The notes beneath the pieces were generated by a model that was given only the letters and a program-made list of their open reading frames with translations, was not told where the DNA came from and searched no databases. Made by a program: the position numbers and the translations under genes. From Lachnospiraceae bacterium MD335 (lineage in GTDB: Bacteria; Bacillota; Clostridia; Lachnospirales; Lachnospiraceae): DNA of 64,000 nucleotides. Each line of letters starts with the position of its first letter. Positions within the stretch are counted from its first letter, which is position 1. The stretch covers positions 1 to 64,000 of the forward strand of contig KE159633.1 in NCBI GenBank assembly GCA_000403335.2, written 5' to 3'. Shown piece after piece: positions 47,244-64,000 of the stretch.

Positions 47244-47990
47244 ATGTATCAGATTGCAATCTGCGATGACGAACAACAGGAATTGGATAAGGTGGAGCAT
47301 ATGCTGCGGGCGTTTGACAGACCGTCCGACGGATTTGCCATAAAACGGTATACGGATGCAAAAGCTCTGCTTTTGGAGATTAAAACAAATACATACCAGC
47401 CGGACATTATTCTGCTGGACATTTATATGCCGTATGCGACGGGAATTGAGACGGCAAGAAAACTGCGTGATATGGGGAATACAGGCAGTGTTATTTTTGT
47501 GACCTCATCAAAGGAGCATGCGTTGGAGGCGTTCGGAGTGTCGGCGTCCGGCTATTTGGTGAAACCGATTTGCGAGAAAGCGCTTTTTGACGCGATGGAG
47601 CGGGCAATGGAAAATCTCGCGGCAAGACAGTGCCGTTATATTCTTTTGGAAACAGAAGATCATGTCCGCAAGGTTGCGCTTGGCGACATTATCTATTGTG
47701 AGGCGCAGCGTAAGACGCAGTGCGTTTACCTGCAGGGCGGCGAGACTGTTTTGCTGCATATGACGATGGCAAAGCTGTGCGAAACGCTTTGCAGCTATCG
47801 GGAGTTTACAAAGATTGGCGTGTCTTATGTCGTCAATTTGGAGCATATCGAGCGGTTAGGCACACAGATGCTGTATTTGGATAACGGGACGGAAATTTAT
47901 CTGCCGCGCGGCTCATACCGGTCTTTACGGGAAAAATATTTCGACTATTATTTTGAGGACGAATCATTTCGTGCAATCCGTACCCTCTAA
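47244..47990 (+). CDS. LytTR-family response regulator
   Basis: A 248-residue regulator with a receiver domain (1-120: AICDDE with the acidic pair, phospho-Asp59 in IILLDIYMP, Thr/Ser in VTSSKEH, Lys in YLVKPI) and a LytTR DNA-binding domain (about 140-240: IIYCEAQRKTQCVYL, FTKIGVSYVVNLEHIERL, LPRGSYRSLREKY). ATG 47244 has GAGG 8 bases upstream; GTG 47235 is less likely. A direct-repeat site lies over its own last codons and continues downstream (47972-48005). It probably drives the surface-protein genes that follow. Confidence 0.92.
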   Translation: MYQIAICDDEQQELDKVEHMLRAFDRPSDGFAIKRYTDAKALLLEIKTNTYQPDIILLDIYMPYATGIETARKLRDMGNTGSVIFVTSSKEHALEAFGVSASGYLVKPICEKALFDAMERAMENLAARQCRYILLETEDHVRKVALGDIIYCEAQRKTQCVYLQGGETVLLHMTMAKLCETLCSYREFTKIGVSYVVNLEHIERLGTQMLYLDNGTEIYLPRGSYRSLREKYFDYYFEDESFRAIRTL

Positions 47991-48041
47991 ACTGCAATCC
48001 GTACCAAACCACTATCTTTTTTTTATATTTTACAATATGAT
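47972..48041 (+). promoter_or_regulatory. Direct-repeat (LytTR-type) site and -10 of the surface-protein operon
   Basis: TGCAATCCGTACC occurs twice without mismatch, at 47972-47984 and 47993-48005, exactly 21 bp apart. TATGAT (48036-48041) follows after 30 nt. The first repeat is inside the end of the regulator gene. The half-site is close to that at 58222-58255 (GCAAATTGTACC), which has the same spacing. Confidence 0.8.
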
Positions 48042-48246
48042 AAACAGACATGAAAAGCATGTCGGGGACGCTGCCATATTTCCCCCCTCGCAGCGTTTCC
48101 GGCATGAATTCATGTCCAGACAGGCGGCGTATGGAGCGAAAACAAAAATATTACAAAAGAATTTGGCAGGCAGCCCGCGAAGTACGCCGATGTTTGGAAA
48201 CTAAAATACGCACGTAGGAGCGTGCATGAAAGAAAGGAGTTCAACT

Positions 48247-49197
48247 ATGAAAAGAAAATCATTATGGAAGGTACTGGGAACAGGAATGCTTGCATTCAGC
48301 CTGATCGTTTCCCCGCTTGCAGCAACGGCGGCGCAGGCGGCAGAGATGCCCGAGGGACAGACCACAGAGCCGACTGAAACCGAAGAGGAGACCTTGGACG
48401 GACAGCAGGAAAACCGCGCGGGAGAAGGCGGCGATACGAACGTAACCCCTGCGGCAGAGGGCGACGGCACAGGGGATGGCGCTGCCGGCGGTACGGACGA
48501 CGGTACAACTGAAGACCCGATGGTGAAAGAGGGCGGTGAGAAAACAGACCTTGACCCGCTGCGCGACGAGGAGATTCCGGCAGAAGGGATAGAAGGCGAG
48601 CCAGACTACAAGCCTGCAAAAGAAGCATATGCCGACGTAGAAATCCCCGTTTGGGGCTTTACCGAGGACGCGACCGTCTATTCGGTTGACGTGGAGTGGG
48701 GCGCGATGACGTTCCAGTGGGAGAACAGCAGCTGGGATCCCGAGACGCACATGAAGAAAGCGGGAGCAGGCTGGAAGGTTTACGACAGCGCTGCAAACAG
48801 GGCGCTCAATGAAACAGTGCATGAAATCAACGAGATTAAAGTCACAAATCATTCCAACGCGAAAGTTTATGCATCGCTTTGGTACACGGCAGTGAATGAT
48901 GGCACCGGCGATTTTTCGGACACGAGAGGATGTTTTTCTGCGGCAACCGATTATGATGAAAACAGAACATTCTTCCAAGAAAACTATATGACAAGTCCTG
49001 CGTACCTGCGGCTTGATACCGCAGATAATTCTGAGGTGGAAGGCGAAGCAGGAACGCCGACTGTCGCAAAGGCGTATTTTATGCCCTACGACTTAAAGGA
49101 GGAGTTAAAGAAGGACGACGGTATTACAAAATGGACAAAAATCGGCACAATTACTGTCGGCATTAAGACGGAAGTACCGACATGGCCCGAACCTTAA
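48247..49197 (+). CDS. Secreted surface protein with 'WGxMxF' C-terminal domain
   Basis: A 316-residue exported protein: signal peptide (1-32, cleavage near AQAAEM), a long acidic, Gly/Thr/Glu-rich linker (about 33-130) and a C-terminal domain (137-316) with DATVYSVDVEWGAMTFQ, WKVYDSAANRAL, IKVTNHSNAKVYASLWY and FMPYDLKEELKK. The same domain ends the next gene, with long nearly identical nucleotide stretches, so one copied from the other. I do not know the function; related domains are common in exported Lachnospiraceae proteins. No cell-wall anchor is seen. It is the first gene after the direct-repeat promoter at 47972. ATG 48247 follows AAAGGAG. Confidence 0.75.
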   Translation: MKRKSLWKVLGTGMLAFSLIVSPLAATAAQAAEMPEGQTTEPTETEEETLDGQQENRAGEGGDTNVTPAAEGDGTGDGAAGGTDDGTTEDPMVKEGGEKTDLDPLRDEEIPAEGIEGEPDYKPAKEAYADVEIPVWGFTEDATVYSVDVEWGAMTFQWENSSWDPETHMKKAGAGWKVYDSAANRALNETVHEINEIKVTNHSNAKVYASLWYTAVNDGTGDFSDTRGCFSAATDYDENRTFFQENYMTSPAYLRLDTADNSEVEGEAGTPTVAKAYFMPYDLKEELKKDDGITKWTKIGTITVGIKTEVPTWPEP

Positions 49198-49284
49198 TTT
49201 AATGCATACAGCCGTTTGGCGGCGCCGGTTTGCACCGACAAAGCGGCAGAATAGTATAAAAACAAATAAAGGAGGATAGCAGGG

Positions 49285-50718
49285 ATGAAACACAAACAGT
49301 TCAAACAGCGTATCCGCAAGGGAATTGCCGTTTTTATGGCAGGTGTTGCGGCGTGCTTTCTTCTGCTTTCATACACAGGGGACGCAGGCATTGTGAATGC
49401 ATTAAGCGCCGGCTTTGTTGAAAAGCATCTTTGGATTGGGGGAACAGAGGTGACGAGGCGGAATTGCGACAATATTTTTAACGAGTTGGGAGAGGATGGA
49501 AATCCGACCGCTCGCTTTGACCTGAAAACAGGCACCCTGTATTTAAACGGCGTAGATATTCGCGACACCTATAAATATTCTAATAAATATTACTCCTTTT
49601 ATTCTTACGGACCAATGCTGGACAATTTGGTTATTACCGGAGAGAATTATTTTTCCGATGGAATTTTTTCCATTGATAATCCGACAGATTTATACACACA
49701 AAATTCCATAACGGGTACGGGAACGTTGCGCTGCAATGGGAAGTTTCGGTGGGAAGGTACGTCGTTTCAAGCGGAAAAATATCTCATATATGGAAGCGAA
49801 ACGGAAAAGACAGGACCAAAGATTGAGGCGAAAGAAGGAGTTGCAATTAACGGTATAGGAATAAAAATGTATGGAGGCGTTATCAAGGGGTTCTCAAAGG
49901 ACGGCATAGGTTTTCAAAACCTGATGAACGCTTCATATGAAAGTAGATTTGTGCAATTGTATAACGACAGTGTTATCATGGCAAAAAAGGGCAAAGCATC
50001 AACAGAATCCCCCGTTGATGCATACACGGGCCGGACTAAGCGGGTTATGGGCATAAACAGTGAAGACTATTTTGGCTGGGTAGTGTATAAAGCAAAAGAT
50101 GCCAAAGATACGATTCCCGAACTGGATGATTGGGATATGGAAATTGACCTGACTGATGAAGATTATTGTGATACGGAAATCGACGTTTTGGGATTTACGG
50201 AGGACGCGACCGTCTACTCGGTTGACGTGGAATGGGGTGCGATGACGTTCCAATATGAAAACGCGACATGGGACGCTACAGCGCACAAGACCGCTGAGAG
50301 TGCGCAATGGAAAGTGTATGACAGCGAAAACAGCAAGGCGCTTGATACGACGCAGGATGCAATCAACCAAATCAAAGTCACGAATCACTCCAACGCCGGC
50401 GTTTATGCGACGCTTCATTACGCAGGGACAAAAACGGACGCCGTGGATTATACGGATACTACAGGCGGTTTTACCAAAAGTGCGGAGGATACAGATACAC
50501 AGCTTACCGAAAAAGAAGGCGATGTGCCGGAGTATCTGACACTTTCTACCGCCGACAACAGCGGGGACGCCTCCGTGGCGGGAACGCCGACAACGGGTAC
50601 GGTCTTCTTTATGCCGTCGGGCATTAAGGAGGAATACAAAAAAGCGGACGGAATTACCAAATGGTCGCAGATTGGAACGATTACGATCGGAATTGAGACT
50701 GAGCAGCCGACTGCATAA
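49285..50718 (+). CDS. Secreted surface protein, paralogue of previous, with extra N-terminal domain
   Basis: A 477-residue exported protein. It has a basic signal peptide (1-40), a beta-rich middle (about 44-250) that starts LWIGGTEVTRRNCDNIF and TGTLYLNGVDI, a pattern frequent in clostridial surface proteins, and the C-terminal domain (303-477) shared with the gene before it (ATVYSVDVEWGAMTFQ, IKVTNHSNAGVYATLHY, FFMPSGIKEEYKK). No LPXTG or S-layer motif is present. It may be assembled with its paralogue into one structure. AGGAGG is before ATG 49285. Confidence 0.75.
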   Translation: MKHKQFKQRIRKGIAVFMAGVAACFLLLSYTGDAGIVNALSAGFVEKHLWIGGTEVTRRNCDNIFNELGEDGNPTARFDLKTGTLYLNGVDIRDTYKYSNKYYSFYSYGPMLDNLVITGENYFSDGIFSIDNPTDLYTQNSITGTGTLRCNGKFRWEGTSFQAEKYLIYGSETEKTGPKIEAKEGVAINGIGIKMYGGVIKGFSKDGIGFQNLMNASYESRFVQLYNDSVIMAKKGKASTESPVDAYTGRTKRVMGINSEDYFGWVVYKAKDAKDTIPELDDWDMEIDLTDEDYCDTEIDVLGFTEDATVYSVDVEWGAMTFQYENATWDATAHKTAESAQWKVYDSENSKALDTTQDAINQIKVTNHSNAGVYATLHYAGTKTDAVDYTDTTGGFTKSAEDTDTQLTEKEGDVPEYLTLSTADNSGDASVAGTPTTGTVFFMPSGIKEEYKKADGITKWSQIGTITIGIETEQPTA

Positions 50719-50726
50719 TAATTGAG

Positions 50727-50747
50727 AATGGGAAAACATTTCCCATT
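50727..50747 (+). other. Hairpin after the second secreted-protein gene
   Basis: AATGGGA and TCCCATT around AAACATT. It lacks a T-run and directly precedes hairpin element copy 2. It may protect the mRNA 3' end or adjust expression of genes in the operon. Confidence 0.5.
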
Positions 50748-50753
50748 GTCGTA

Positions 50754-50829
50754 CGCCGGTCGTCCGTCAGGGAACCGATTTATCGGTTTGATAACATATT
50801 ACATTTGGACGCCCCGTGTGCATAAAACA
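50754..50829. repeat. Dispersed hairpin element, copy 2 (inverted)
   Basis: The reverse complement of this stretch begins TGTTTTATGCACACGGGG and includes ATCAAACCGATAAATCGGTT, as in copy 1 at 15698. The outer stem here is CGTCC/GGACG in place of CACC/GGTG, so pairing is kept while sequence differs. Confidence 0.75.
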
Positions 50830-50832
50830 TAC

Positions 50833-50876: not shown

Positions 50877-52292
50877 ATGAGCAGACAGATTAAAATGGAA
50901 GGCGGCTTTGCATACCGCAATACGGGAACCATCAAAAACAGCTATGCTGCCGTAAAATTAAGCACGGCAGTGCGGTTTGGCAGAAATAAGAGCGAGAATG
51001 CAGGTTTTGTTTATGACAACAGCGGAGAACTTGACCACTGCTTTTCACGCAGTATTGTGCGCACGTGGAGGAAAGGGAAGGACGGTCTGATTGCCGTTAA
51101 CAAGGGCAGATTTCACTGGTGCTTTTTTGTCGTGGGCAAGGATAGGAAATTGAAGAAATTCAGGGACAGGGAGCATGGATTTGCCAAAAAGGATGTTGTG
51201 CCCGCATTTCTTGAGGACGCCTATCAGTGGGATTTTACCGTTTTTGAGCGCGAGCCTGCGGGAAAAATGGAGTTTTTGCAGGAAAGCTGGCGCTGCGCGC
51301 CGAACGGCTTAGAGCAGGCGGCAGTCAAAAAGCCGTTGGAAATCGCAAGCCGCAGACAGCTTTTGGACTGGATTGAACGTGTCAACCGCGGGGAGCCTGA
51401 GGCGGCGCAGGGGAGTGTCCTTCTGACACAAGACCTGGACTTTCACGGAAAGGAAATCCCTTCGATTGGCTGCGACAGACAGCACCCCTTTTTGGGAACA
51501 TTTGACGGCGGAGGGCATCAGATTAAGGGTTTTATTTTGAATGGAAAGGGCATGGCGGAAATCGGCTTTTTCGGCGTGCTCAAGGGAACGGTCCGCAATC
51601 TTACCATTGACTGCATCGTAAAAGGAAAGAACTGTCCGATTACGGCGGCGTTCTGCGCGGTCAACGAGGGCGAAATCCACTGCTGTGAGGCGCTCTGCAG
51701 TATCCACGCAAATCGCTATGTCGGGGGCTTCGCCGGCGAAAACAACGGCGTGATAGAACGCTGCTGCGTCAGCGGGAAAAGCCACGGTCTGTTTCTGATT
51801 TGGCTGTTTCCGTTTCTGCCGTACCTTGCGCTGTTGTTTTTGTTTCTGTTTTATCCGCCGCTGCCCCCGCCAGACTATGTGCCCGTGATGGCGGACGCGG
51901 CGATTATTCCCAATACCGACAACGACTTCGGGGAGCGCACGAACGACAATAAGGCAAGCTACGAGGTGCCAAAGGTGCTGCGGGTGGATACCGCAACGCT
52001 TACGGCGGAGAGCGAGCCCTACGTGATTAAGAACCCAAGCCGCGGGGCGAATTATGATTTTGTGGCGGTGTTGTACATGGTGGACAGCAGCGGGAAAGAT
52101 GTGGAGATTTACCGCTCGGGGCGTATTCCTGTCGGATTTCATATCGAGAATCTGACGCTTACGCCGCCTGAGGGGATTGTGCTTACCAAAGGGACGTATG
52201 AGGCGAAAATGGTCTTCTCGTTTTATAACCACGACACCGGCGAGAAGGGCATGGTGGACTCGGTTGTGCCGATTACGGTGGAGTTGAAATAA
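50877..52292 (+). CDS. GLUG-repeat membrane protein
   Basis: A 471-residue protein. The first 300 residues carry GLUG-like repeats (GGFAYRNTGTIKNSYA, AGFVYDNSGELDHCFS, IGFFGVLKGTVRNLTID, AAFCAVNEGEIHCCEA, GGFAGENNGVIERCCV), also including PFLGTFDGGGHQIKGF. One membrane helix follows (about 305-327, very Leu/Phe-rich, then PPLPPP) and a C-terminal beta domain of about 140 residues (VGFHIENLTLTPPEGIVL, GTYEAKMVFSFYN). GLUG motifs are usually extracellular, yet there is no signal peptide and the helix is central, so the GLUG part may be inside the cell. Its partner and role are unknown. The SD is AAAGGAAG. Confidence 0.75.
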   Translation: MSRQIKMEGGFAYRNTGTIKNSYAAVKLSTAVRFGRNKSENAGFVYDNSGELDHCFSRSIVRTWRKGKDGLIAVNKGRFHWCFFVVGKDRKLKKFRDREHGFAKKDVVPAFLEDAYQWDFTVFEREPAGKMEFLQESWRCAPNGLEQAAVKKPLEIASRRQLLDWIERVNRGEPEAAQGSVLLTQDLDFHGKEIPSIGCDRQHPFLGTFDGGGHQIKGFILNGKGMAEIGFFGVLKGTVRNLTIDCIVKGKNCPITAAFCAVNEGEIHCCEALCSIHANRYVGGFAGENNGVIERCCVSGKSHGLFLIWLFPFLPYLALLFLFLFYPPLPPPDYVPVMADAAIIPNTDNDFGERTNDNKASYEVPKVLRVDTATLTAESEPYVIKNPSRGANYDFVAVLYMVDSSGKDVEIYRSGRIPVGFHIENLTLTPPEGIVLTKGTYEAKMVFSFYNHDTGEKGMVDSVVPITVELK

Positions 52293-52332: not shown

Positions 52333-52830
52333 ATGAAACGGAAAAATTGTGTCACCGATGCGAGGAGAAAAACAAAAATCGGGATTTTGACAAGTCTTGC
52401 CATCATTTTGTGTATCGCCCTTTCACTCGGATACGTCCGCTTTGCGCAGGGCTACCGCGTATTCCGCGCGCCCGCGCACGAGGAGACGGCGGCAGAAGGA
52501 CTTCCCGAGGCAGGACAGGGCTGGCAGGAGCTGCCCGTAAAAGAGGGATACACCATCGGACTCGAAACTGCTCCGATGGTTTTGGGCGGCGGCTTGCAGG
52601 TAAATTTGGCGAATTATGCCGAAAACGCAGTGTGGATTTTGGCACGCATATATCAGGAGGAGGAGCTGATTGGTCAAACTGGTGTTCTGTATCAGGGCGA
52701 GTATGTTGCGCAGGTGCCATGTGAAAAAACAGTATCCGCAGGCGATACCGTGCTGCTGCAGATTATCGCGTATGAGCCGGAAACATATCATAGTGAAGGC
52801 GTGGCGCGGATTTCGTGTCAGGTGCAGTAA
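52333..52830 (+). CDS. Small membrane-anchored extracytoplasmic protein
   Basis: A 165-residue protein: basic N terminus, one helix (about 16-37), a linker and a beta domain (about 70-165) with the pattern GQTGVLYQGEYVAQVPCEKT then TVLLQIIAYEP. This domain resembles the C-terminal domain of the GLUG protein just before it, so both probably display the same small domain outside the cell. ATG 52333 follows GGAGG at some distance. Function unknown. Confidence 0.65.
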   Translation: MKRKNCVTDARRKTKIGILTSLAIILCIALSLGYVRFAQGYRVFRAPAHEETAAEGLPEAGQGWQELPVKEGYTIGLETAPMVLGGGLQVNLANYAENAVWILARIYQEEELIGQTGVLYQGEYVAQVPCEKTVSAGDTVLLQIIAYEPETYHSEGVARISCQVQ

Positions 52831-52863: not shown

Positions 52864-54042
52864 ATGTTAGGAGGTTCTTTTTGGATTGCAATGCTTCGGC
52901 ATATGATGGGAGCGGCGCTGATGATGGGCGTGTTTTTTCTGCTTGACAGACCGCGGTTTTCGATAAAAAGGACAGCAGTATATTACTGCGTGTTCGGGGT
53001 GCTTGCCGCGGCGGTGTTTGGCGTGTGGTATTTGGTTGACGTGCAGATTTTTATCAGGCTTTCAGGATTTATGGCGATTTTGGTGGTCGGAATCTTCTGC
53101 ATTGCCATGAGCGCGGATTTTCTATACCTGTCCGTTTATAAGCTGACGCTTGGCTTTTACCTGCTCTCCGTCATGGTATTTTTGGGCATTGACGGTTCGC
53201 GTTTATGGTTTGGAGGCAGTCTTTGGGCGGATATTGCGCTGCGTGCGGCGACCGGGACGGTAATGCTGCTGTTTATCATAAAAAGCGTGCGTCCACGCTT
53301 CCAATCGGGACGGGAATATCTGAGTGCAGTGATGGATTTGCCGAGCGCAATTACGCTGGTGGTCATGCTGATGATTGCGGGCGTAGGGGCATATTGGCCT
53401 GACGACCATGCATTATCCGTAAACCGCGTGGTGCGTATTGCGGTCATGCTTGCGATGACAGGCATTATTCAGTGGATGACGTTTCGCACGTATCTTTACC
53501 GCGGAAAAGAATACTGCTGCCGGATGGAAAAGGAGCTTATGGAACTCAACGAGCTGCTGCTGGAGCGCCAATTGCGTCAGATGCAGGTGTCCGGTGCAAA
53601 TGCTGCACATGCGCAGCAGATTTGTGACAATGTGACAGTCAGCAATATATTGTCCACTTACATAGCGTATGCAGATGAGGAAAAAATCGGGATTAAGGTG
53701 CAGGCGGATATAGATGCGCAGATTCAAGTGCGTGAGTTTGACATTGCGGCAATTCTTGTCAGCATTTTTGAGAATGCGATATACGAGTGCCGCAATTCGT
53801 ACGGAAAAAAGCGTCAGATTAACGTGGTCCTTCTGCAAAACAAAAACAAGGTGGTGTTGATGTGCCAAAACACCTGTGCGCCTAAGCGGGAACAGGAGGA
53901 GTATCCTGCGTATTGGAAGGAAAAAGCGGAATGCATCCGCAAGCTGGTGCGGTATTACAACGGCGAGGTGGAGTTTTTGGTAGAGGACAACGTGCGCGTT
54001 TCCAAGGTTTTACTGGACGTTTCCATGCAGGGCAGGCGGTAG
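52864..54042 (+). CDS. GHKL-type sensor protein lacking the phospho-acceptor motif
   Basis: A 392-residue membrane protein with six or seven helices (1-205), a coiled-coil linker (210-245) and a GHKL ATPase-like domain (about 255-390). The N box is recognisable (SIFENAIYEC, near Asn304). However the usual HDxRHH phospho-acceptor segment should be near residue 245 and is absent: the sequence goes directly from LERQLRQMQVSGANAAHAQQ to ICDNVTVSNIL. The Gly-rich lid motifs are also missing after MCQNTC. It is therefore likely a pseudokinase. It is last in the surface operon that begins behind a LytTR regulator gene. Confidence 0.8.
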   Translation: MLGGSFWIAMLRHMMGAALMMGVFFLLDRPRFSIKRTAVYYCVFGVLAAAVFGVWYLVDVQIFIRLSGFMAILVVGIFCIAMSADFLYLSVYKLTLGFYLLSVMVFLGIDGSRLWFGGSLWADIALRAATGTVMLLFIIKSVRPRFQSGREYLSAVMDLPSAITLVVMLMIAGVGAYWPDDHALSVNRVVRIAVMLAMTGIIQWMTFRTYLYRGKEYCCRMEKELMELNELLLERQLRQMQVSGANAAHAQQICDNVTVSNILSTYIAYADEEKIGIKVQADIDAQIQVREFDIAAILVSIFENAIYECRNSYGKKRQINVVLLQNKNKVVLMCQNTCAPKREQEEYPAYWKEKAECIRKLVRYYNGEVEFLVEDNVRVSKVLLDVSMQGRR

Positions 54043-54178: not shown

Positions 54179-55096
54179 ATGTATTTTCTCTTTTTCATTT
54201 TACTGATGATTGCATTTTTTAGCTGTATTTTATTTCACATAAGAAAAAAGCGCATTATCAAAAAGATTAAATGCATGGATGAATGTCAGAAATGTTCTGT
54301 AATAGAGGAACTTGTAAAGCCATTCGGCTACTGTTATCATTGCCGGTGCGGCTTCTTTTCAGCCACACTGGATGCATGGCAGAGAAAAGCCGGTTATACC
54401 TGGTTTTATGACTATATGGCGCCTCGGTTTCAGATGGTTTTTGACGCACTGCCGATCTATTTTGACTATAGGGGCAGAACATGGTTAATTGAGTTTTGGA
54501 AAGGACAATATGGAATCAATACCGGAGCGGAAATCGGTATTTACCATGCAGATGAAATTATTGCCGAAAATGCGTATAAATCGACGCTGTTTGAATGTGC
54601 GTCGGATGAGGAACTGCTAAACTGTTCATTGACGCTTTGCGACGCAAATGGCGACTGTGTGAAAACCTGTCAGAAGCATTGGTGGATTACGGCATTTTTA
54701 ACGGGATGCTTTACACAGCCTTACAATTTGTGTCTGAAATCAACGCTGACATTTCCAAACGGGGAAATGCAGAGTGCCTTTATTGACGGAATGTATCGGG
54801 CAGGATATACACGGCACGATTTTGTATTATGCGGTCTGTCGCTGACATTTACATTCCTTCGGCAAAAAAAGACAGACTATAACTTGCCGACACGCTTTTG
54901 GCGCCGCTTTTCACAGTGGAAAAACAAGATTTCGTGCCGATTGTATTTATGGGTGACAAAGCCCTTTCAGAGCAGTGAAGACCGGATTTTATGCCTGTAC
55001 TACTGCATTCCCATAGCATTCAGAAAACTGCTTCGAATGCGTCGCTTTCATAAACGCTGCCATAAAAAGAGACGCTGCTGCCGGAGACGGTCATGA
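54179..55096 (+). CDS. DUF4474-family protein
   Basis: A 305-residue protein with an N-terminal membrane helix (about 3-20), the DUF4474 core (about 45-260: FGYCYHCRCGFFSATLDAWQ, FDALPIYFDYRGRTWLIEFW, KGQYGINTGAEIGIYHAD) and a very basic, Cys-containing C-terminal tail (about 285-305). Family function is unknown. Its TGA overlaps the ATG of the metallophosphoesterase gene, so the two are translationally coupled and probably act together. Confidence 0.8.
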   Translation: MYFLFFILLMIAFFSCILFHIRKKRIIKKIKCMDECQKCSVIEELVKPFGYCYHCRCGFFSATLDAWQRKAGYTWFYDYMAPRFQMVFDALPIYFDYRGRTWLIEFWKGQYGINTGAEIGIYHADEIIAENAYKSTLFECASDEELLNCSLTLCDANGDCVKTCQKHWWITAFLTGCFTQPYNLCLKSTLTFPNGEMQSAFIDGMYRAGYTRHDFVLCGLSLTFTFLRQKKTDYNLPTRFWRRFSQWKNKISCRLYLWVTKPFQSSEDRILCLYYCIPIAFRKLLRMRRFHKRCHKKRRCCRRRS

Positions 55097-55914
55097 GTGT
55101 TTCGTCGCGTTTGGTGCACGCTTTTGAAAACGCCCTTGTGCTGCCGTTTACACATCGTTCCCGATATGTGTTAATGAGCGACTGCCACAGGGGCGTTGGC
55201 ACCGCTTCCGATAATTTTTTAAAGAACCGGCATTTATATTACGCAGCGTTAGAGCACTATTACAAAAACGGATTTACTTATATTGAACTTGGCGACGGTG
55301 ACGAGCTGTGGGAAAATCGCAGCATGAAAAACATTATCGAGGTGCATGAGGATGTCTTTGAGATGTTTACAAAATTCAGCAGTCAGGGCAGGCTGTACCT
55401 TATTTACGGAAATCATGATATGGTAAAAAAGAAGAAATCCCGATGCCCGGCGTTTCCTTTTTATGAGGGAATTATCCTGTGTCCGCCCAATATGCCGCAG
55501 CGCGCGCTTTATCTGACGCATGGTCATCAGGCGAGCCTGTTAAATTCTACGTTTTGGCGGGCAGCGTGTTTTTTGGTGAGATATATTTGGAGTCCGTTGG
55601 AAAATGTGGGCGTTTTGGACCCGACAAGCGCAGCGAAAAATTATCATGTGAAAAATAACTGTGAAACGCGTTTAAAAGATTGGGCAGTAGAAAACAAACA
55701 CATTTTGATTACCGGACATACGCACCGCCCTGTAATGCCCAAGGAACCTGCCTATTACTATAATACGGGAAGCTGTGTCCATCCGCGCTGCATTACCTGC
55801 ATTGAAATAGAGCGGGGGGCTATGACGCTGGTAAAATGGTACACGAGTGTCAGACCGGATCATTCGCTCTATGTGGCGCGGGAAGAAATAGGCGGACCTG
55901 TTTCGGTGTTGTAA
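55093..55914 (+). CDS. Calcineurin-like metallophosphoesterase
   Basis: A 273-residue enzyme with the five metal-site blocks of the family: MSDCHRG (Asp, His), ELGDGDELWE (Asp), YGNHDM (Asn, His), THGHQ (His) and TGHTHRP (His-x-His). No signal peptide or membrane helix is seen. The substrate is not known. It starts in the last codons of the DUF4474 gene (ATGA overlap), which suggests a functional pair. Confidence 0.85.
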   Translation: MSVSSRLVHAFENALVLPFTHRSRYVLMSDCHRGVGTASDNFLKNRHLYYAALEHYYKNGFTYIELGDGDELWENRSMKNIIEVHEDVFEMFTKFSSQGRLYLIYGNHDMVKKKKSRCPAFPFYEGIILCPPNMPQRALYLTHGHQASLLNSTFWRAACFLVRYIWSPLENVGVLDPTSAAKNYHVKNNCETRLKDWAVENKHILITGHTHRPVMPKEPAYYYNTGSCVHPRCITCIEIERGAMTLVKWYTSVRPDHSLYVAREEIGGPVSVL

Positions 55915-55954: not shown

Positions 55955-57241
55955 TTACAGAACAATGCGCAGGACAAACTGCCCGTTTGATACGGAAAAA
56001 TCGTACAATGCATGGTACTTGTTACAAAAGGTAAAAATCGAGCGTGTTCCGATACCATGCCCGTGTTCCTTGGAGAGCGGCAGTCCGTCCGCTGAGAAGG
56101 CAACCGGTTCGCTGCAGGGATTGGAAATCTCAAACATGAGCTTTGGCGTACAGATACACCGGACAGCAATCCTGCGTTTCTCCTTCGGGAGGAGACGGCA
56201 GGCGTTGATGGCATTTTCAAGCGCGTTTGCAATGACAATCGCAAATTCCCCCGAATCGACCGGCAGCGTATCCGAAAACTGCAGCCGTGTCTCCAACGTA
56301 ATTCCCGCCTCCTTTGCCTGAGCGAAATAGGAGGAGAGCGTCGCGTTGATGATAACGTCCTGACAATAGCGTACCGGTGTGTGCGTTTGGAACTGGCGGA
56401 TGGACTGACTGATATAGTCAAGTGCATCCGCCGTTTTTCCTTCCTCCAACAAGGATGCAGCCGTGCAAAGGATATGGCGTGTATCATGTCTGTCAATACG
56501 GGATTTTTCCGCCGCGATTGCATCCGCCGAAAGCTTGTCCTTTAAACGGTTCACCTGAACTTCCATAAGCTCTAAATCCTGTTTCGTTATCTGCAGGCGG
56601 TACTGCATGGCAAGATACTGAAAAACAGAGAAATAAATGACGGCAATGACTGCGCTAAACAGATAGATATATACAATGTTTGGCGGGTTTTGCGTGTAGG
56701 GGACCGGATAGGAGGCAAGCATGACGGCATATGCAATCAGGGAGCAGGGAATAAGCGCCAAAATAAGCCATCCGCTATCGGTAACGTTGGTAAACCACAG
56801 AAACGGACGGCGCAAAAAGCGGTATTCCAACAGAATAATCAGTACATAAAACGTCAGGCGCATGAAAAAATCGGTCAGCTCATTGCCGCTGATGGCAGCG
56901 TTGATGAGAGTCGTAGTTGCAGCGGCATACGCGGAGATTAATATCTGCGTCATATAGTTAAATACCGCTTTTGCAGGCTGGTCCTTTGCCATTTTAAAAA
57001 CCAGCACAATCGCAGGTACGGAAATGGTGAACAGAAAGACGCGCAGAAAAACCGGGTAGCCCAAAAAGAAAATAATTGCGGCGCTGGATGCCGCCACATA
57101 GCTCAGATATAGGAAAAAATGCAGCGCAACGCGTTTTGCACTGTATTTAAAACGCGTGGTGGTGCACATCATGCCAAGCGTTCCAAGCACAATCAGCAAG
57201 GTTTTTAGGGTACTGTATGGAATATTGTCTTCAAATAACAT
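55955..57241 (-). CDS. GHKL sensor histidine kinase (intact)
   Basis: A 428-residue kinase of the AgrC-like type: six or seven membrane helices (about 10-215), a coiled coil, the phospho-acceptor motif RHDTRH (His252), and a GHKL ATPase domain with IVIANALENAINAC (N box) and HGHGIGTRSI (G box). In contrast to the kinase-like gene at 52864 it keeps all catalytic motifs. ATG 57241 has AAGGAG 6 bases upstream and overlaps the end of the regulator gene by 11 bases, so the two form a coupled pair. Confidence 0.9.
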   Translation of the reverse strand: MLFEDNIPYSTLKTLLIVLGTLGMMCTTTRFKYSAKRVALHFFLYLSYVAASSAAIIFFLGYPVFLRVFLFTISVPAIVLVFKMAKDQPAKAVFNYMTQILISAYAAATTTLINAAISGNELTDFFMRLTFYVLIILLEYRFLRRPFLWFTNVTDSGWLILALIPCSLIAYAVMLASYPVPYTQNPPNIVYIYLFSAVIAVIYFSVFQYLAMQYRLQITKQDLELMEVQVNRLKDKLSADAIAAEKSRIDRHDTRHILCTAASLLEEGKTADALDYISQSIRQFQTHTPVRYCQDVIINATLSSYFAQAKEAGITLETRLQFSDTLPVDSGEFAIVIANALENAINACRLLPKEKRRIAVRCICTPKLMFEISNPCSEPVAFSADGLPLSKEHGHGIGTRSIFTFCNKYHALYDFSVSNGQFVLRIVL

Positions 57242-57983
57242 GGCATTCTCCTTGGCGAAACCAGTAATCCATCCACTTGGCTTTGACCTCTTCATAGATA
57301 CGGCGCGGTACCGGAACAAGGCGTCCGCCGCGCATGATAAGGGCGGATTTGGTGATTTCCGACACGTGGGAAAGGTTTACGATAAAGGACGCGCCGACAG
57401 GAAGCATGGAGTCAAAGCAAAGCAGCGGTGCGACGGCGTTTTGAAAGGTACCATTAAACGTTATGCCGGTTACGGCGGTATTGTCGCTTAAATAATAACA
57501 GACGCAGCGTTCCACGCGCTCTGCGTAGAGAATGTCCGAAACGGGCAGTATGCGCAGTGCGTTTGCGGTTTTTACGGAGATATTTTCTGTTTGTATCTTG
57601 GAAAAATACGCCATTGCCTTATCCATAGCGGCAAAAAACTGCCCTTGTTCCACGGGCTTCAACAGATAGTGCAGCGCCTCCGTACTGTAGGACTCTACCG
57701 CAAAATCGGGGGAAAAGGTCAGATAAATAATAATTCCCCTGTCGTTTCTGCCACGCAGAGCGGCGCCTGTCTCAATGCCGTTTTGTCCGGGCATCAGCAC
57801 ATCCAATAAGTAAATGTCAAACGCGCCGTGCTCCAGGGTATAATCCAATAACTCCTGCCCTGAGGAAAACAAGGTGAGGGTAAACGTGTCGGAAGGTCTT
57901 GTCTGCCGGTATTGTTTTAAAAGCGCGGCAGCCGTTTCATGAAAAGATATTTCGTCATCACATAAAGCAATTCTCATTTGCAC
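57231..57983 (-). CDS. LytTR-family response regulator (partner of the GHKL kinase)
   Basis: A 250-residue regulator with a receiver domain (RIALCDDE, phospho-Asp in DIYLLDVLMP, Lys in HYLLKPV) and a LytTR domain (about 145-245: ILYAERVERCVCYYL, FIVNLSHVSEI, VPVPRRIYEEVKAKW). GTG 57983 is chosen because AAGGAG lies 8 bases upstream; ATG 57977, two codons later, is possible. It is read away from the giant surface-protein gene, with a direct-repeat LytTR-type site (58222-58255) between them. Confidence 0.88.
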   Translation of the reverse strand: MQMRIALCDDEISFHETAAALLKQYRQTRPSDTFTLTLFSSGQELLDYTLEHGAFDIYLLDVLMPGQNGIETGAALRGRNDRGIIIYLTFSPDFAVESYSTEALHYLLKPVEQGQFFAAMDKAMAYFSKIQTENISVKTANALRILPVSDILYAERVERCVCYYLSDNTAVTGITFNGTFQNAVAPLLCFDSMLPVGASFIVNLSHVSEITKSALIMRGGRLVPVPRRIYEEVKAKWMDYWFRQGECHVI

Positions 57984-58379
57984 GGGGTCGACTCCTTTTC
58001 GAATATATGTTTTAATGGCATGAAATACGGATATTGCATCTTTGATTAAAATTATATCAAAAAATTGCTTAAAATGCAAAAGCGGAATAATGAATATTTG
58101 CAAATAATTAAAATTTTATAAACAAAGTTTAAACAGGGAAAAAAGTGGGTTGAAATCTTGAAGAATAGCGGTTTTGTGTATGCATCAAACCGTCTGTCAA
58201 GAGAAAATTTCAACTTAAAACTGCAAATTGTACCCTCAAAATGACAAATTGTACCAAGACGGTGTGCAAAAGGTTATTTTTTCCGTAAAATGATAAGTAA
58301 TAAATTATTAAATTACTATAAAATAACATGCGTGATTAAAAACACAACACAACGCAGTCACAGGAGGAGGTACAACATT
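57984..58379. other. Divergent control region, 396 bp
   Basis: AT-rich region between the minus-strand LytTR/GHKL pair and the giant surface gene. It holds the direct-repeat site and -10 at 58222-58291. No reading frame or repeat element was recognised in the rest. Confidence 0.65.
58222..58291 (+). promoter_or_regulatory. Direct-repeat (LytTR-type) site and -10 of the giant surface gene
   Basis: GCAAATTGTACC (58223-58234) and ACAAATTGTACC (58244-58255) start 21 bp apart. TAAAAT (58286-58291) follows after exactly 30 nt, the same distance as in the promoter at 47972. The half-sites share the core CAAnnnGTACC. Confidence 0.8.
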
Positions 58380-61300
58380 ATGAATGCAGAAGAATACCGT
58401 GCATGGTTAAAGAAAAGGAGAAAAAGGCGCATGCGCATACTGGCAGCAGTGCTGTGCTTTTGCGTAGTATGCAGCACTTATCCAAACATACTGGAAACAT
58501 TGTCCGTCATCGCGTCGGCAGATGCAGACGCTGCGCGGATAACGGCATTTGTACAACTGCCAAAGGAAGTGCAGAATCAGACTGTCGCGCCCGGAACCAA
58601 ACAGGAAGAGCTGGCACTGCCTGACACACTTGAGGCATACATAGAACAATCAGATACAGAACAATCAGATACAGAACAATCGGATACACAACAATCAGAT
58701 ACAGAACAATCGGATACACAACAATCAGATACAAAACCTGATACAGAACAATCCGACCCGCCGGAAACGAAACAGGAGTCGGACACGATACCGCCGACAA
58801 CGGAGCCGGAAACGAAACAGGAGCCTGACACGGCAACAGAGCCGGAAACAAAACAGGAGCCTGACACGGCAACGGAGCCGGAAACAAAACAGGAGCCGGG
58901 CACGATACCGCCGACAACAGTACCGGAAACGAAACAGGAGCCTGATACAACAACCGTGCCGGAAACAAAACAGGAACCGGAACCGACACCAAAGCCGGAA
59001 CCGGACGAAAAAACCGAAACGCATACCGTTACCCTGCCCACATATGAGGCACAAAACAAAATAACGGTAAACACCCTGCAAACCGCCAACGGGGAAAGTG
59101 CGCCCCAACCCACAGGGGAAAGTGCGCCCGAAAACAACGGGGAAAGTGCGCCCGTTACCATAGAAAACATCACATGGACCAGCGCCCCCGTATACGACAA
59201 AGACCGTGAAGGCATATACACCTTTACTGCCGTCCTCCCAAAAGGCTACACAACGGCAGACGGCGTATCCCTGCCCCAAATCACGGTCGAGGTAACCCAA
59301 GACGCCGCATGGCAGCAGGAGCTCCAAGCCCTGCTCACGCTCCTGCGCGCCCTCCCGAATCCCGAGGACTACCTGACCTACAACAAAACCACTCAGACAA
59401 TCACCGAAAACAAAGACCTCATAGAAGAACCTAAGCTGACGGAGGCGAGAGCTGCCGCGGACGCTTACATACAGAAATACCCGGCGGAAAACGAGCTCCT
59501 TTCCCTTCTGACGCGTTTAGAGGGCTTAGAGCACATCCGCGACACAAAAAAAGACTGCATGGACTTCGACTGCCCGTATCACTATCCGCACTCTGCCCGG
59601 GACCTGATAAATCAGGACGAAACGCCGGATCCGCTCACACTGGAGGACTTGGTAGAGGACTATGGCGTAGAACCGACTGTGCAGCCTAAGGCATACAGCA
59701 AGGCAAGAGCCGCAGTGACGCACCCACGGACGCTCATGATTACGGACGATAACGAGAACAACTCCCACACCGGGACAGCGGATGGCGATATAGACAGTTA
59801 TATGTCTGGACATAAAGCGCATGCGCCAATTGAACTTTCCTTTACACTGGACGAGCTGCCCACGCAGAGTGCGTATTTGGCAATCAAGGCAAATGATGTG
59901 GATGAGGACTATGGTGAGACAGATTATGTATATCTCAATGATGATATTTTTCTGCCGATGGATCGCAGAAATCAGTGGTATGAGTCATATAATGCAGAGA
60001 CAATCGGCTATCTTTCCGGCACAAACAATACATGGAACACAACCATACTGGAAATACCGCTGGAAAAATTAAAAAAAGGAAAAAATGTAATTTCCGTAAC
60101 AATTGCATCCGGCTGGTCAGTGAAAGTGGACTGGATGCAGCTCATTTTGGACGGCGGAACGAAGGACAATGCGGTTGAGGAATTTTCGATTAAACTGCAG
60201 AACGCCATTAATAATGGAGACAAAACAACAGTAGACGCCCAGGTGACCATTAAGCAGACAGGGACAACAGAATATGCAACAGAATATACCCTGATATGTG
60301 AGGAGACGGGCGACGCGCTGGATGCCTGTTTCGGAAAAGCGTCAGCCGATGAGACGGTTTCGCTTACCATGCCGTTAGACTCCCCGTCAGGCAGATATAA
60401 AATTACAGGTATTTTAAAAAATGCCGATACGGAGGAAATTAAGGCGACAGATACGGTCAGCTTCGATTTCATACAAGGCGAAGGCGCCAATGTCTTGTTA
60501 AAGACCAGCCATACCCTGACGCCTGCCGTGTTTACAAATCAGAATGTAGAGATACGGGTGAAGGCAGAGCCGGTGGACAATTCCGTGACAAATATCACCG
60601 TACAGGACGGCGGAAAACGAACAGTCACACAAAACGGTACATACGATTTCACCGTCAGCTATCAGCAGGACGGACAACCGAAATCAAAAACGTACACCGT
60701 AAATGTGACAAACATTGACAAGGAGCCGCCCCAAATCGAATACACGCCAATCACAGTGTCAGAAAAGATGGATAATGCACAGGCAAAAAAGCTCTTCGAG
60801 CAGGCATTGCACGTCACAGACAACATGACGCAGGAATGCGAGGTAAGCTACATATTTCCAAACCCGCTTACCGATGCCGCAATAAAAGTAACGGCAAAGG
60901 ACAAGGCAGGCAATCAGACCACAAAAGACTGCCCAATCCTCATTTTGGAGACCCTAAAAATCGGACAGCCCACAGCCACAAGACAGGGAACCTCAACAAG
61001 CTTCACCCTTTCTGCGAAACTGGAGGGCGCAGGCGGCAAAACCATAACGGAAAGCGGTTTTGTGTGGGGCACCATGCAAAATCCCACGGTAACGCTCAAT
61101 CAGGGCAGCGCCAAATCCGCTGTGACTGCGGTAAAGAAAAATGACGCCATCAAAGTAACAGCCGCTGACATCATATCAGGGGTTCATTACTATGCCCGCG
61201 CCTACGCAAAGGCGGATAACACCTGTTATTACAGCTCCAACGTGGCATTTAACATCGGCGCAAAGCAATACGGCGCCTTCACCATCAAAAACAACGGAAA

Positions 61301-64000
61301 CAACACCTTCACCGTCACAAGGACAAACGGAACCGAAGGCACACAGAAAGTATACTACCGCACCGTAAACGGCTCCGCTGCAGGCGGCACGCACTTCACG
61401 CACCGGGCAAGCAGCCTGACCTTTACGGCAGGAGAGACCACAAAGACCATCAGCATAACAGAGCGCGGGGTAAACACTGCCTACGGCAGTAAAACCGCCA
61501 CCGCCTACACCAACGCCGACCGTACCTATCAGGTCGAGCTATACCGCGTCACAGGCGGCGCCACCCTCGGGGACACCGTAAGGGCGACAAGGACAATGAC
61601 AAAAGGAAGCGCCTACACCGTTAACAGAAACGTATATTCGGAAAAGCAGCAAAGCTTTCCCACCAACAATGACAACAATATCGTCGCCGACCGCAGCAAA
61701 ACAAAAGACCACCAGCCCTATTTTCGCAACAACCGAGGCTACAACCAGTCGCACGGACAGCTAAATTTCAACGTCCAAAGAACCTTTAGCATATCAGGCA
61801 GCGACAAGGAAAAGGCTTACATCAAGGCAACCGCGGACGGCTATTACTACAGACTGCGCTTCAAAGGCAGGGAAGACAGCGACGGCTACGAGCACATATG
61901 GATAGCCGACCACAAGCCGAACAACTTCGACAGCGCCAATGAGCACAACGGCGCAATCAACATCGACGACAACCTTTTCGGCGCCGCAAAATACACCGCA
62001 AGATGGGACATCGACAACGGCAAAACAGCCACCATCACCGTACCCGGGGCAAATATGCGAAGCAACCTCTCAGGCTGGAGAGAGTCCGCAAGAAGCGGCG
62101 CCGAGGAAGGAGACTACATCGCGTTCGGCTTCGACGACGAAGTGAACGTATGGTTTGCGTCAACAGGAAGCGCCACCGACAAATGGCTCGTCGATACCTA
62201 CGACGACTATATCAAGGTAAAAGACGCCACGGAACCGCAGCTTTTGGCAGTTGCGCCAATGGCAGGCGGCACCTATAAGACAGGCGATACCGTCACCGTT
62301 TCCCTCATATTTGATGAAATCGTAGACAGCAAAAACAGCGACCTTGGCAGCGTGTCCATCGACACCACATGGGGCAGCTTTGCCTACGCAGGCGGCGCCG
62401 ACACCAACGTCCTCTACTTCACGGGGACAGTGCCCGCAAACGCCACAGGCACATTAAAAGTAAATAAAATCAACAACGCGGCAAAAATCAAGGATATGTG
62501 CGATACGGCAGGAAAGGCGTCAGGCGGTACAGGCAGCGCGTCAGTGACCGTGGACACCAAAACGCCCGTCGTTTCCGTCACCAATCCGACACTGATCAGC
62601 GGAACGGCATCCGGCACCATCACCGCCTCAAACGCCGATACTCTGCGCTATGCATGGAGCGATAGCGCCACCATGCCCGTAGACGGCTGGTTCTCATGTA
62701 AAAGCGGCTACCGGGCAGGCACAAGACGCGCAAGCGGCAAATGGTATCTCCATGTAATGGGCGAACGAAACAACAACGGCGCCGTGGCGCACGCATACCA
62801 CGAATTTGATTTTGGCACACCTGAAAATCCCACATCGCCGCTGCCCGAGCTTATCGCTGCGGCAGACAACACCAACTGGGCGCGCAGCAGGGAAGTAAAG
62901 CTCACCAAAAGACCAGCCGATGCGCCGGTTACCGTCAGGTTTCCCGACGGCAGCACGCAGAGCCTGAAAAATACCGACACCACATTTTCGGTTGATACAA
63001 ACGGCGTCTGCACCGTCACAATGACCGCAGGCGACGAGGTCATCACGCAGGACGTGACAATCGAAAAAATAGACAGGGATAATCCCACGCTCACACTGAC
63101 CCAAGCAGGCAGTGTGGATGCCGTCTACAACAAACTGGTCATGGCGGCGATGGCACAGGACGCCCTCTCCGGCATCAAAACAGTGCAATACGCGTTTACC
63201 ACAAGCCGGACCGCGCCTGTAAACGGATGGCAGACCGCGGACGACAGCAGCAAAACAGCCGACGGAAAGTATGCATTTACCTACACGGCAACACAGACCG
63301 CGAGGACAAAAATATATCTCCATGTAAAAGTAACAGATGCGGCAGGCAACAGCACTGCAGAAACCTCCGAAGGCTACACCGTGATCAAAGAACCTGCGTC
63401 TGCAAGCCAGCCGCAGATAACGCTGACTGTACCGGATACGAACTGGACAAATCAGGACGTGACACTCACATGGAAGCTGACAGCCACAGGGGCAGGAGGC
63501 TGCACGGTCTACGCAGATGATAAAATGCTCACCAACCAAAGCGTCAATGCCACAGGGACAATCACCGCGTCCAAAAACGGCATCTACACAGTGTCCGTCG
63601 TAGACCAAAACGGGGCGTCGGCGGACGCGACGCTGGTGGTTAACCACATTGACAAGGAACCGCCGACACTGGAGGACCCTGAATTTTTGAATCCGAAAAA
63701 ATGGGCACGTAGTAAAACAATAAAGTTTTTAACAGTAGACGATAATAATACTCTGCAGTATGACGAAAAAGGCATGACAGGAAAAGGCGGCAGCGGAAAG
63801 ACAAAAGGGTATGAGTACAAGGGGGTGAATATGGAATGGGTTTCCTCTTCGTCTACAACTGTTCAGCTTACGGTATTGTCCAATGGAACCTATACGTTCA
63901 GAATAACCGACAATGCAGGCAACGTGACCGAAAAGAGCGTTGTGGTGGACGGGGTAGACAAAACCAAACCGGAAGTGACCGCCACAGTCAACGCGACAAA
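58380..64000 (+). CDS. Giant secreted surface protein with repeat stalk and Calx-beta domain (C terminus outside window)
   Basis: An open frame of at least 1873 codons from ATG 58380 (SD AGGAGGAGG) runs to the window edge without a stop. It starts with a very basic segment and a long signal peptide (about 11-47). Residues 89-118 are six EQSDT/QQSDT repeats, followed by PETKQEPDT-type repeats to about 215 and three GESAP units near 240-258. Then come a domain with ITWTSAPVYDKDREGIYTFT (near 262), a Calx-beta domain (about 965-1035, VYYRTVNGSAAGGTHF then SLTFTAGETTKTISI), and several Ig-like or bacterial surface domains (APMAGGTYKTGDTVTVSLIF, TVTDAAGN-type motifs). It should be an adhesin or surface-layer-like protein under LytTR control. 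Codons end in C far more often than in neighbouring genes. Confidence 0.85.
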   Translation, partial: MNAEEYRAWLKKRRKRRMRILAAVLCFCVVCSTYPNILETLSVIASADADAARITAFVQLPKEVQNQTVAPGTKQEELALPDTLEAYIEQSDTEQSDTEQSDTQQSDTEQSDTQQSDTKPDTEQSDPPETKQESDTIPPTTEPETKQEPDTATEPETKQEPDTATEPETKQEPGTIPPTTVPETKQEPDTTTVPETKQEPEPTPKPEPDEKTETHTVTLPTYEAQNKITVNTLQTANGESAPQPTGESAPENNGESAPVTIENITWTSAPVYDKDREGIYTFTAVLPKGYTTADGVSLPQITVEVTQDAAWQQELQALLTLLRALPNPEDYLTYNKTTQTITENKDLIEEPKLTEARAAADAYIQKYPAENELLSLLTRLEGLEHIRDTKKDCMDFDCPYHYPHSARDLINQDETPDPLTLEDLVEDYGVEPTVQPKAYSKARAAVTHPRTLMITDDNENNSHTGTADGDIDSYMSGHKAHAPIELSFTLDELPTQSAYLAIKANDVDEDYGETDYVYLNDDIFLPMDRRNQWYESYNAETIGYLSGTNNTWNTTILEIPLEKLKKGKNVISVTIASGWSVKVDWMQLILDGGTKDNAVEEFSIKLQNAINNGDKTTVDAQVTIKQTGTTEYATEYTLICEETGDALDACFGKASADETVSLTMPLDSPSGRYKITGILKNADTEEIKATDTVSFDFIQGEGANVLLKTSHTLTPAVFTNQNVEIRVKAEPVDNSVTNITVQDGGKRTVTQNGTYDFTVSYQQDGQPKSKTYTVNVTNIDKEPPQIEYTPITVSEKMDNAQAKKLFEQALHVTDNMTQECEVSYIFPNPLTDAAIKVTAKDKAGNQTTKDCPILILETLKIGQPTATRQGTSTSFTLSAKLEGAGGKTITESGFVWGTMQNPTVTLNQGSAKSAVTAVKKNDAIKVTAADIISGVHYYARAYAKADNTCYYSSNVAFNIGAKQYGAFTIKNNGNNTFTVTRTNGTEGTQKVYYRTVNGSAAGGTHFTHRASSLTFTAGETTKTISITERGVNTAYGSKTATAYTNADRTYQVELYRVTGGATLGDTVRATRTMTKGSAYTVNRNVYSEKQQSFPTNNDNNIVADRSKTKDHQPYFRNNRGYNQSHGQLNFNVQRTFSISGSDKEKAYIKATADGYYYRLRFKGREDSDGYEHIWIADHKPNNFDSANEHNGAINIDDNLFGAAKYTARWDIDNGKTATITVPGANMRSNLSGWRESARSGAEEGDYIAFGFDDEVNVWFASTGSATDKWLVDTYDDYIKVKDATEPQLLAVAPMAGGTYKTGDTVTVSLIFDEIVDSKNSDLGSVSIDTTWGSFAYAGGADTNVLYFTGTVPANATGTLKVNKINNAAKIKDMCDTAGKASGGTGSASVTVDTKTPVVSVTNPTLISGTASGTITASNADTLRYAWSDSATMPVDGWFSCKSGYRAGTRRASGKWYLHVMGERNNNGAVAHAYHEFDFGTPENPTSPLPELIAAADNTNWARSREVKLTKRPADAPVTVRFPDGSTQSLKNTDTTFSVDTNGVCTVTMTAGDEVITQDVTIEKIDRDNPTLTLTQAGSVDAVYNKLVMAAMAQDALSGIKTVQYAFTTSRTAPVNGWQTADDSSKTADGKYAFTYTATQTARTKIYLHVKVTDAAGNSTAETSEGYTVIKEPASASQPQITLTVPDTNWTNQDVTLTWKLTATGAGGCTVYADDKMLTNQSVNATGTITASKNGIYTVSVVDQNGASADATLVVNHIDKEPPTLEDPEFLNPKKWARSKTIKFLTVDDNNTLQYDEKGMTGKGGSGKTKGYEYKGVNMEWVSSSSTTVQLTVLSNGTYTFRITDNAGNVTEKSVVVDGVDKTKPEVTATVNAT
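58644..58733 (+). repeat. 15-bp coding tandem repeat (EQSDT units)
   Basis: Six adjacent 15-bp units of the form GAACAATCAGATACA encode EQSDT or QQSDT. They open the stalk of the giant protein, and further degenerate ETKQEPDT units follow to about 59000. Confidence 0.9.
59091..59153 (+). repeat. GESAP coding repeat
   Basis: The 15-mer GGGGAAAGTGCGCCC occurs three times at 24-bp spacing, separated by short variable linkers, and encodes NGESAP/GESAP units at the end of the stalk. Confidence 0.85.

Follow-up and report, generated by a model that had tools for sequence, protein, structure and literature searches.

A candidate LytTR/GHKL-controlled surface-display locus in Lachnospiraceae bacterium MD335

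Introduction

When genes for regulators, kinase-like proteins, exported proteins and membrane anchors lie side by side, do they form one system or do they merely adjoin each other? The question is raised by a 64,000-nucleotide stretch of Lachnospiraceae bacterium MD335 (hereafter the window; positions 1-64000 of contig C17 in a 4.96-Mb genome), where a sequence-only reading had named eleven genes and proposed that they build and control one cell-surface structure. All eleven are present. Two exported proteins, ExpA and ExpB, share a C-terminal domain (Exp) and belong, with the membrane proteins GLUG-Sand and Anch, to a unit that recurs in other genomes, and ExpA and a giant protein are preceded by the same tandem operator. 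With moderate confidence, we consider this to be a surface-display locus controlled by LytTR/GHKL proteins, in which Exp proteins would dock on anchors with a cytosolic N-terminus (N-in) and the giant would be co-regulated. Among the titles and abstract openings listed by our searches of the open-access literature, none describes this gene set. The features are listed below (TM, transmembrane segment; G and L numbers in the text are our handles for other genomes and for loci).

47039..47072, + strand: class-B tandem repeat ACCAAATYTRCAA, 21-bp period, 5' of RR1 (direct-repeat scan)
47244..47990 (GTG start at 47235 as alternative), + strand: RR1, LytTR response regulator (Pfam Response_reg and LytTR; orthologs)
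47974..48005, + strand: class-A tandem operator CAANNNGTACC-N10-CAANNNGTACC, 5' of ExpA; TATGAT (-10-like) begins 30 nt past its end
48247..49197 (open reading frame start possibly 48226), + strand: ExpA, exported, C-terminal Exp domain (hydrophobic N-terminal signal segment; domain alignment)
49285..50718, + strand: ExpB, exported; beta-helix at the N-terminus, followed by a linker and a C-terminal Exp domain (~50164-50703)
50877..52292, + strand: GLUG-Sand; GLUG beta-helix at the N-terminus, predicted to be cytosolic; TM beginning near residue 307; beta-sandwich at the C-terminus, predicted to lie outside
52333..52830, + strand: Anch; single N-terminal TM and Sand-related beta-sandwich
52864..54042, + strand: psGHKL, predicted GHKL membrane pseudokinase (no His segment or G box; omega 0.19)
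54179..55914, + strand: DUF4474 and metallophosphoesterase pair, judged a bystander (distribution; upstream repeat scan)
55955..57319, - strand: GHKL2, GHKL kinase with intact motifs (Pfam; motif reading; orthologs)
57231..58103, - strand: RR2, LytTR response regulator (Pfam; orthologs)
58224..58255, + strand: class-A tandem operator 5' of the giant gene; TAAAAT (-10-like) begins 30 nt past its end
58380..64000 and on to contig position 72509, + strand: giant surface protein, 4709 aa from ATG 58380, C-terminal TM segment

Results

Exp proteins and their predicted anchors

ExpA and ExpB are indeed paralogues, 56% identical across the C-terminal domain, which is characterized by a YxVDxxWGxMxF motif, a Trp and NHSN, and which is C-terminal in exported proteins. 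This domain has no confident Pfam match: at E ≤0.1, 26 Exp domains matched eight families, with one member each and a best E of 0.022, and no solved homolog was found by sequence at E ≤1. Some Exp-bearing proteins elsewhere are large (~450 to 3000 aa) and carry the domain at their end. Among the matches listed for 53 full-length Exp proteins (25 of 43 families), BspA-type leucine-rich repeats (LRR) occur in nine proteins and Listeria-Bacteroides repeats in three; ExtJ is weakly matched by 16 of the 53 (best E 0.00035; among the matches listed, 25 of 28 families).

The sequence-only reading had also seen a domain shared by the small anchored protein and the GLUG protein. Profile comparison bears this out, as the C-terminal domain of the GLUG protein (Sand) and Anch are homologous (probability 98.4, E 1e-14); no likeness between Exp and Sand was found in this way. 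The GLUG assignment itself has a Pfam match below the cut-off (17.7 versus 20.5 bits), but the modelled structure is a beta-helix (best PDB match 3n6z, Z 11.7, rmsd 6.6, 162 aligned). Other Pfam matches are scattered and weak, both in Anch (n=27; full list of nine families, including DUF5719 in 4 of 27, best E 0.00078) and in GLUG/Sand proteins (n=35; 25 of 27 families listed, including DUF7269 in one protein, E 2e-5). The pilin subunits UpsA/UpsB are weakly matched by at most two of the 35 GLUG/Sand proteins (best E 0.008). Sand gave two weak matches to solved structures by sequence.

Both anchors have a predicted N-in topology. The N side of the TM, which the charge test sought in the expected part of the protein only, is the more positive one in all 35 GLUG/Sand and all 27 Anch proteins. 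Whole-protein scans place a hydrophobic segment N-terminal to the sandwich, with a second stretch inside the sandwich in a few Sand proteins. Cysteines number 10-16 ahead of the TM and 0-1 behind it in all ten GLUG-Sand proteins compared, and no signal peptide was seen. Taken together, these features most probably place the GLUG beta-helix in the cytosol and the sandwich on the outer side, which speaks against GLUG being an adhesin.

Recurrence of the unit

The sequence-only reading had called for a comparison of gene order across relatives. We searched 98 genomes in total, among which Exp occurs in only three of the 38 from the genus (MD335 itself, G006 and G031). The Exp profile matched 15 of 396 genomes of the family, MD335 included, 11 of them with two to seven copies. 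A scan of named genomes yielded 50 Exp loci, mostly from metagenome-assembled genomes labelled Clostridia, Clostridiales, Lachnospiraceae or Oscillospiraceae, but also from isolates; named carriers are Diplocloster agilis, Dorea phocaeensis, Blautia sp. MSJ-19 and Pseudoflavonifractor capillosus. Together with 12 of 19 other Exp-bearing stretches (the remaining seven being duplicates), these make 62 loci, some of which share a genome. Exp was found in 61 of them, Sand or GLUG-Sand in 43, Anch in 37, both anchors in 30 and at least one anchor in 50, and 36 encode an Exp protein of at least 400 aa, whereas 21 control loci (342,926 bases) gave zero matches to the Exp, Sand and Anch profiles.

Two layouts are seen. 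In one, a large exported protein ending in Exp is followed by Sand, at least one small Exp protein, Anch and sometimes a protein with a signal peptide and a C-terminal TM. In the other, to which the window belongs, ExpA, ExpB and sometimes a third Exp protein are followed by GLUG fused to Sand and then by Anch. In G031, RR1, ExpA, ExpB, GLUG, Anch and psGHKL occur together with an extra, contig-cut ExpA copy and without DUF4474.

Tandem operators

The same element, two copies of the class-A half-site separated by ten nucleotides, lies upstream of ExpA and of the giant gene. Both sites in the window are exact, with 0.38 sites expected at ≤3 mismatches, and 5 of 100 shuffled windows contain at least two sites at that threshold. 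The half-site occurs five times in the window against 1.27 expected, four of these being inside the two operators. Genome-wide, there are three exact class-A sites: in addition to the two in the window, one lies next to a LytTR/GHKL pair on contig C12. Weaker copies on C12, with one and two mismatches, are found at a psGHKL-like GHKL gene and just 5' of large exported-type genes.

All 16 operator sites that we selected, many of which are orthologous, have a -10-like hexamer 29 or 30 nt past the operator end. At 13 of them, a hexamer with at least 4/6 positions of TATAAT lies at 30 nt (11 sites) or 29 nt (two sites); the other three (C12:848296 and two in G011) have it at 29 nt, with scores of 4, 5 and 4. 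The summed -10 score at +30 over the 13 sites is 55 of 78, whereas 2000 mononucleotide shuffles reached 45 at most at any offset, a comparison that overstates independence because many of the sites are orthologs. Class-A operators linked to a giant were found in MD335, in G006 (one mismatch) and at one G488 giant. Repeats of 21 bp related to class B precede RR1 in G006 and G031 and the giant of G024, and a different 21-bp repeat precedes ExpA in G492.

Two of the C12 sites have neighbours of their own. The third exact operator (L258, C12:310280-314656) adjoins, besides the LytTR/GHKL pair, an opposite-facing gene that reads as integrase-like. At one weaker operator (L259, C12:846793-853775), there is a GHKL gene that spans two overlapping frames and is 38% identical to psGHKL at its N-terminus; large exported-type proteins follow it, and the matching locus of G011 carries proteins that read as LRR-like.

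Regulators, kinase and pseudokinase

Both LytTR regulators exceed the LytTR cut-off of 22.6 bits, at 48.5 and 30.4 bits, and the contrast between one intact and one motif-less GHKL protein holds. GHKL2 retains its motifs (RHDTRH, the N box NALENAINA and HGHGIG), whereas psGHKL is without the RHDxRH segment and the G box in all three orthologs seen (MD335, G006 and G031). With an omega of 0.19 at dS 1.0 between MD335 and G031, the motif-less protein is, judging from its sequence, a pseudokinase under purifying selection. RR1 orthologs stand beside Exp genes in G006 (96% identity) and G031 (78%). GHKL2 and RR2 are 93% and 98% identical to their orthologs in G006.

The sequence-only reading had further supposed that kinase and pseudokinase supply two inputs, which proved not to be general: G031, 91% complete, has RR1 and psGHKL, and a GHKL2 ortholog was not found there. 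GHKL2 was therefore rejected as the regular partner of psGHKL. More broadly, our own LytTR profile, made from four sequences, found 14 genes in the 62 loci compared with 2.6 expected, the expectation being a mean density (353 genes in 125.7 Mb of 37 such genomes) that hides differences between genomes. The genome of MD335 itself (~5 Mb) has 28 LytTR domains.

The giant protein

The giant is real and extends beyond the window; the part inside it has Pfam Calx-beta and BiPBP_C matches. Its central region was found in 6 of 71 genomes, at eight places, seven of which have a GHKL gene nearby and five a LytTR gene. GHKL kinase, LytTR regulator and giant are thus a unit of their own, which is usually a separate locus.

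Three observations tie the giant to the Exp genes: the shared operator with its -10 spacing, the contiguity of both units in G492, and a giant with an Exp end in G344. In G492, GHKL2 (60% identity), RR2 (54%), a second regulator/GHKL pair, ExpA (55%), ExpB, GLUG (61%), Anch (57%) and two partly giant-like genes are contiguous. The G344 protein is 39% identical over 1157 columns to giant residues 780-1867 and has an Exp domain at its end; its gene is followed by Sand, Exp, Exp and Anch.

In the G492 locus, the second LytTR regulator (L203:7667-8325) is split over two frames, although its GHKL kinase has retained all motifs; the window shows the opposite, an intact regulator and a degenerate kinase. 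In G006 (L102, ~2290-3058), a pair that reads as a RelB/ParE-type toxin-antitoxin lies between RR2 and the giant; it is absent from the window.

The DUF4474/phosphoesterase pair

This pair is present as described (DUF4474 at 278 bits, with a metallophosphoesterase), but distribution and neighbours rule it out as a part of the system. DUF4474 occurs in 23 of the 38 genus genomes, 21 of them without Exp. The phosphoesterase is found at 9 of 9 sampled DUF4474 loci, and matches to Exp, GLUG, Anch, psGHKL or the giant at none of the nine; regulator or GHKL matches at these loci are only ~22% identical. Given this wide occurrence without Exp and the unrelated neighbours, we judge the pair to be a bystander. 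The direct-repeat scan found no 21-bp repeat upstream of it.

Exchange of the exported genes

Between MD335 and G006, DNA identity falls to 46-76% over 48794-50793, whereas the flanking RR1, GLUG and Anch genes are mostly 93-98% identical (two flanking windows are at 86% and 89%). The dS of ExpA is 0.48, compared with 0.08-0.12 in RR1, GLUG and Anch. ExpA and ExpB appear to be swapped as a ~2-kb cassette between close relatives, the regulators and anchors being kept.

The region 5' of RR1 (47031-47244) adjoins serA in the window and a gene that reads as recJ-like in G006. Homology between the two genomes starts ~200 bases before RR1, which indicates that the locus moved or that its flank was rearranged. 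A simple insertion between serA and tyrA was not retained: no other listed genus genome has both genes on one contig, so no empty site can be demonstrated. A phage origin was not retained either, as a search of a phage collection in near mode, covering 2.8 kb, gave no match.

Discussion

A display locus and its alternatives

In the arrangement we favour, Exp proteins, each made of a variable N-terminal module and the common Exp domain, would be secreted, and the Exp domain would dock on the beta-sandwiches of the N-in anchors GLUG-Sand and Anch on the outside of the membrane, leaving the N-terminal parts as the variable displayed modules. The giant would add another large protein to the surface, anchored by a TM of its own. 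The tandem operators, with their 21-bp period, would take the place of a -35 box, and LytTR regulators bound to them would, upon a suitable signal, switch on ExpA-ExpB-GLUG-Anch and the giant together. Instead of acting as a kinase, psGHKL would be a partner of RR1, or its antagonist, in the membrane. Cassette exchange would affect the exported genes and leave anchors and regulators in place. Thus, the idea of one system survives for the recurrent Exp/GLUG-Sand/Anch unit, near which LytTR genes are enriched, but not for the DUF4474 pair, nor fully for the giant, which mostly occurs elsewhere; the idea of common control survives to the extent that the ExpA operon and the giant have the same operator type and that the units are contiguous in G492.

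Several observations speak against this arrangement. LytTR genes were seen in only 13 of the 62 loci, and 12 of the 62 have no anchor; some of these lie at the end of a contig, but L164, L169 and L207 each cover 20 kb. Seven of the eight giant stretches gave no Exp, Sand or Anch match in the profile search. The giant-like proteins of G492 match parts only (182 aa at 31%, 595 aa at 39%), and this genome failed the search for the giant central region. No class-A operator was detected at the ExpA genes of G488, G491 and G492. At ≤2 mismatches, class-A and a reversed control give 5 versus 5 sites in the MD335 genome, so that only exact or near-exact sites are informative. Finally, the fold matches of both sandwich domains are generic, with Z < 8.

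Alternatively, the locus could consist of independent units that are merely adjacent in MD335 and its sister genome: one operon for Exp and the anchors, the DUF4474/phosphoesterase pair with a housekeeping role, and the GHKL-LytTR-giant unit. The uneven distribution in the genus (Exp in three, DUF4474 in 23 and GHKL2 at >50% identity in two of the 38 genomes) is consistent with this, as are the seven giant loci lacking Exp and anchors and the location of giant and GLUG genes on different contigs in G429, G488, G489 and G493, all of them drafts. We consider mere adjacency unlikely, though by no means negligible, given the exact operator and equal -10 spacing common to ExpA and the giant, the contiguity in G492 and the Exp domain on the G344 giant. 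It is quite improbable, in our estimation, that Exp polymerises into a fibre by strand exchange, in the manner of TasA or chaperone-usher pili, with Sand and Anch as membrane-bound chaperones. The Exp model does match pilin domains and the TasA fibre (8aur_A, Z 4.8, rmsd 4.2, 128 aligned), and Sand matches a type 1 pilus assembly chain (9fx8_C, Z 6.4, rmsd 3.5, 99 aligned), the CsuC chaperone (6fq0_C, Foldseek E 0.009) and the archaeal AAP filament (8q30, Z 6.8, rmsd 2.9, 90 aligned). However, a Z below 8 is the range that the tool assigns to common arrangements, integrin and chitin-binding chains (for Exp) and the LPMO GbpA (for Sand, Z 7.7) score as high or higher, no Foldseek match reaches E 0.001, and a domain so often terminal in very large proteins would be odd as a major subunit. 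A defence, toxin-delivery or other non-structural role seems very improbable: no support was found for it, Pfam and NCBIfam scans of the window proteins naming no such domain (PADLOC was not searched), and Exp proteins elsewhere match the LRR and Listeria-Bacteroides repeats typical of surface adhesins.

Within the display arrangement, the cytosolic GLUG beta-helix could conceivably report Exp docking to the LytTR circuit via the pseudokinase, allowing the cell to sense completion of its coat, although we regard this extension as doubtful. If the display arrangement is correct, Exp, Sand and Anch would be a three-part set for holding non-covalent surface proteins on gut Clostridia, and many large adhesin-like proteins with a terminal Exp domain would thereby acquire a function. 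The operator, the conserved pseudokinase and the cytosolic GLUG domain would be entry points to LytTR control of the surface.

Comparison with known systems

The TasA/TapA fibre (PMC9674648, PMC10151520) and chaperone-usher pili likewise combine an exported beta-sandwich protein with a beta-sandwich partner. Here, in contrast, the partners are membrane-bound and no fold or sequence match is significant, the fold comparisons (Z 4.8 to 6.8) lying below the level that separates relatives.

On the regulatory side, a LytTR regulator, a GHKL kinase and 21-bp-period tandem repeats 5' of putative targets, the hallmarks of LytTR two-component systems, are all present. The sites of Streptococcus mutans LytTR systems are 9-bp repeats near the promoter with a spacing of mostly 12 bp, hence the same 21-bp period, and a LytTR regulator there has a partner in the membrane for which no kinase role is described (PMC6193735). 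Here, in contrast, RR1 carries a receiver domain, psGHKL is a GHKL protein in degenerate form and the repeats also precede surface-protein genes.

Also among the closest known systems are the WxL/WxLIP (DUF916-DUF3324) or csc clusters of lactobacilli, enterococci and Listeria (PMC10599100, PMC1534035). Each such cluster combines a small protein consisting of the shared domain only, a large protein with this domain C-terminal to binding modules, and a partner anchored by a TM. WxLIP is described there as a TM-anchored protein of IgG-like fold, predicted to insert a hairpin strand into WxL (PMC10599100), and the csc genes are stated not to be present in clostridia (PMC1534035). None of 26 Exp domains matches Pfam WxL at E ≤0.1, which leaves room for remote homology, and neither DUF916 nor DUF3324 is found in 27 Anch proteins (full nine-family list) or in 35 GLUG/Sand proteins (among 25 of 27 families); WxL structures are absent from the fold matches, which is uninformative. 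The locus differs in that the TM is N-terminal to the sandwich (N-in) rather than C-terminal, and in having two related anchor families and LytTR genes nearby. The cluster make-up is nevertheless present, though not with all three parts at each locus (Exp in 61, an Exp protein of at least 400 aa in 36 and an anchor in 50 of the 62 loci), and we count the small protein with a signal peptide and a C-terminal TM that some loci add as a further likeness. The locus is not a member of this system by the profiles tested; its architecture mirrors that of WxL/WxLIP clusters without a detected sequence relationship.

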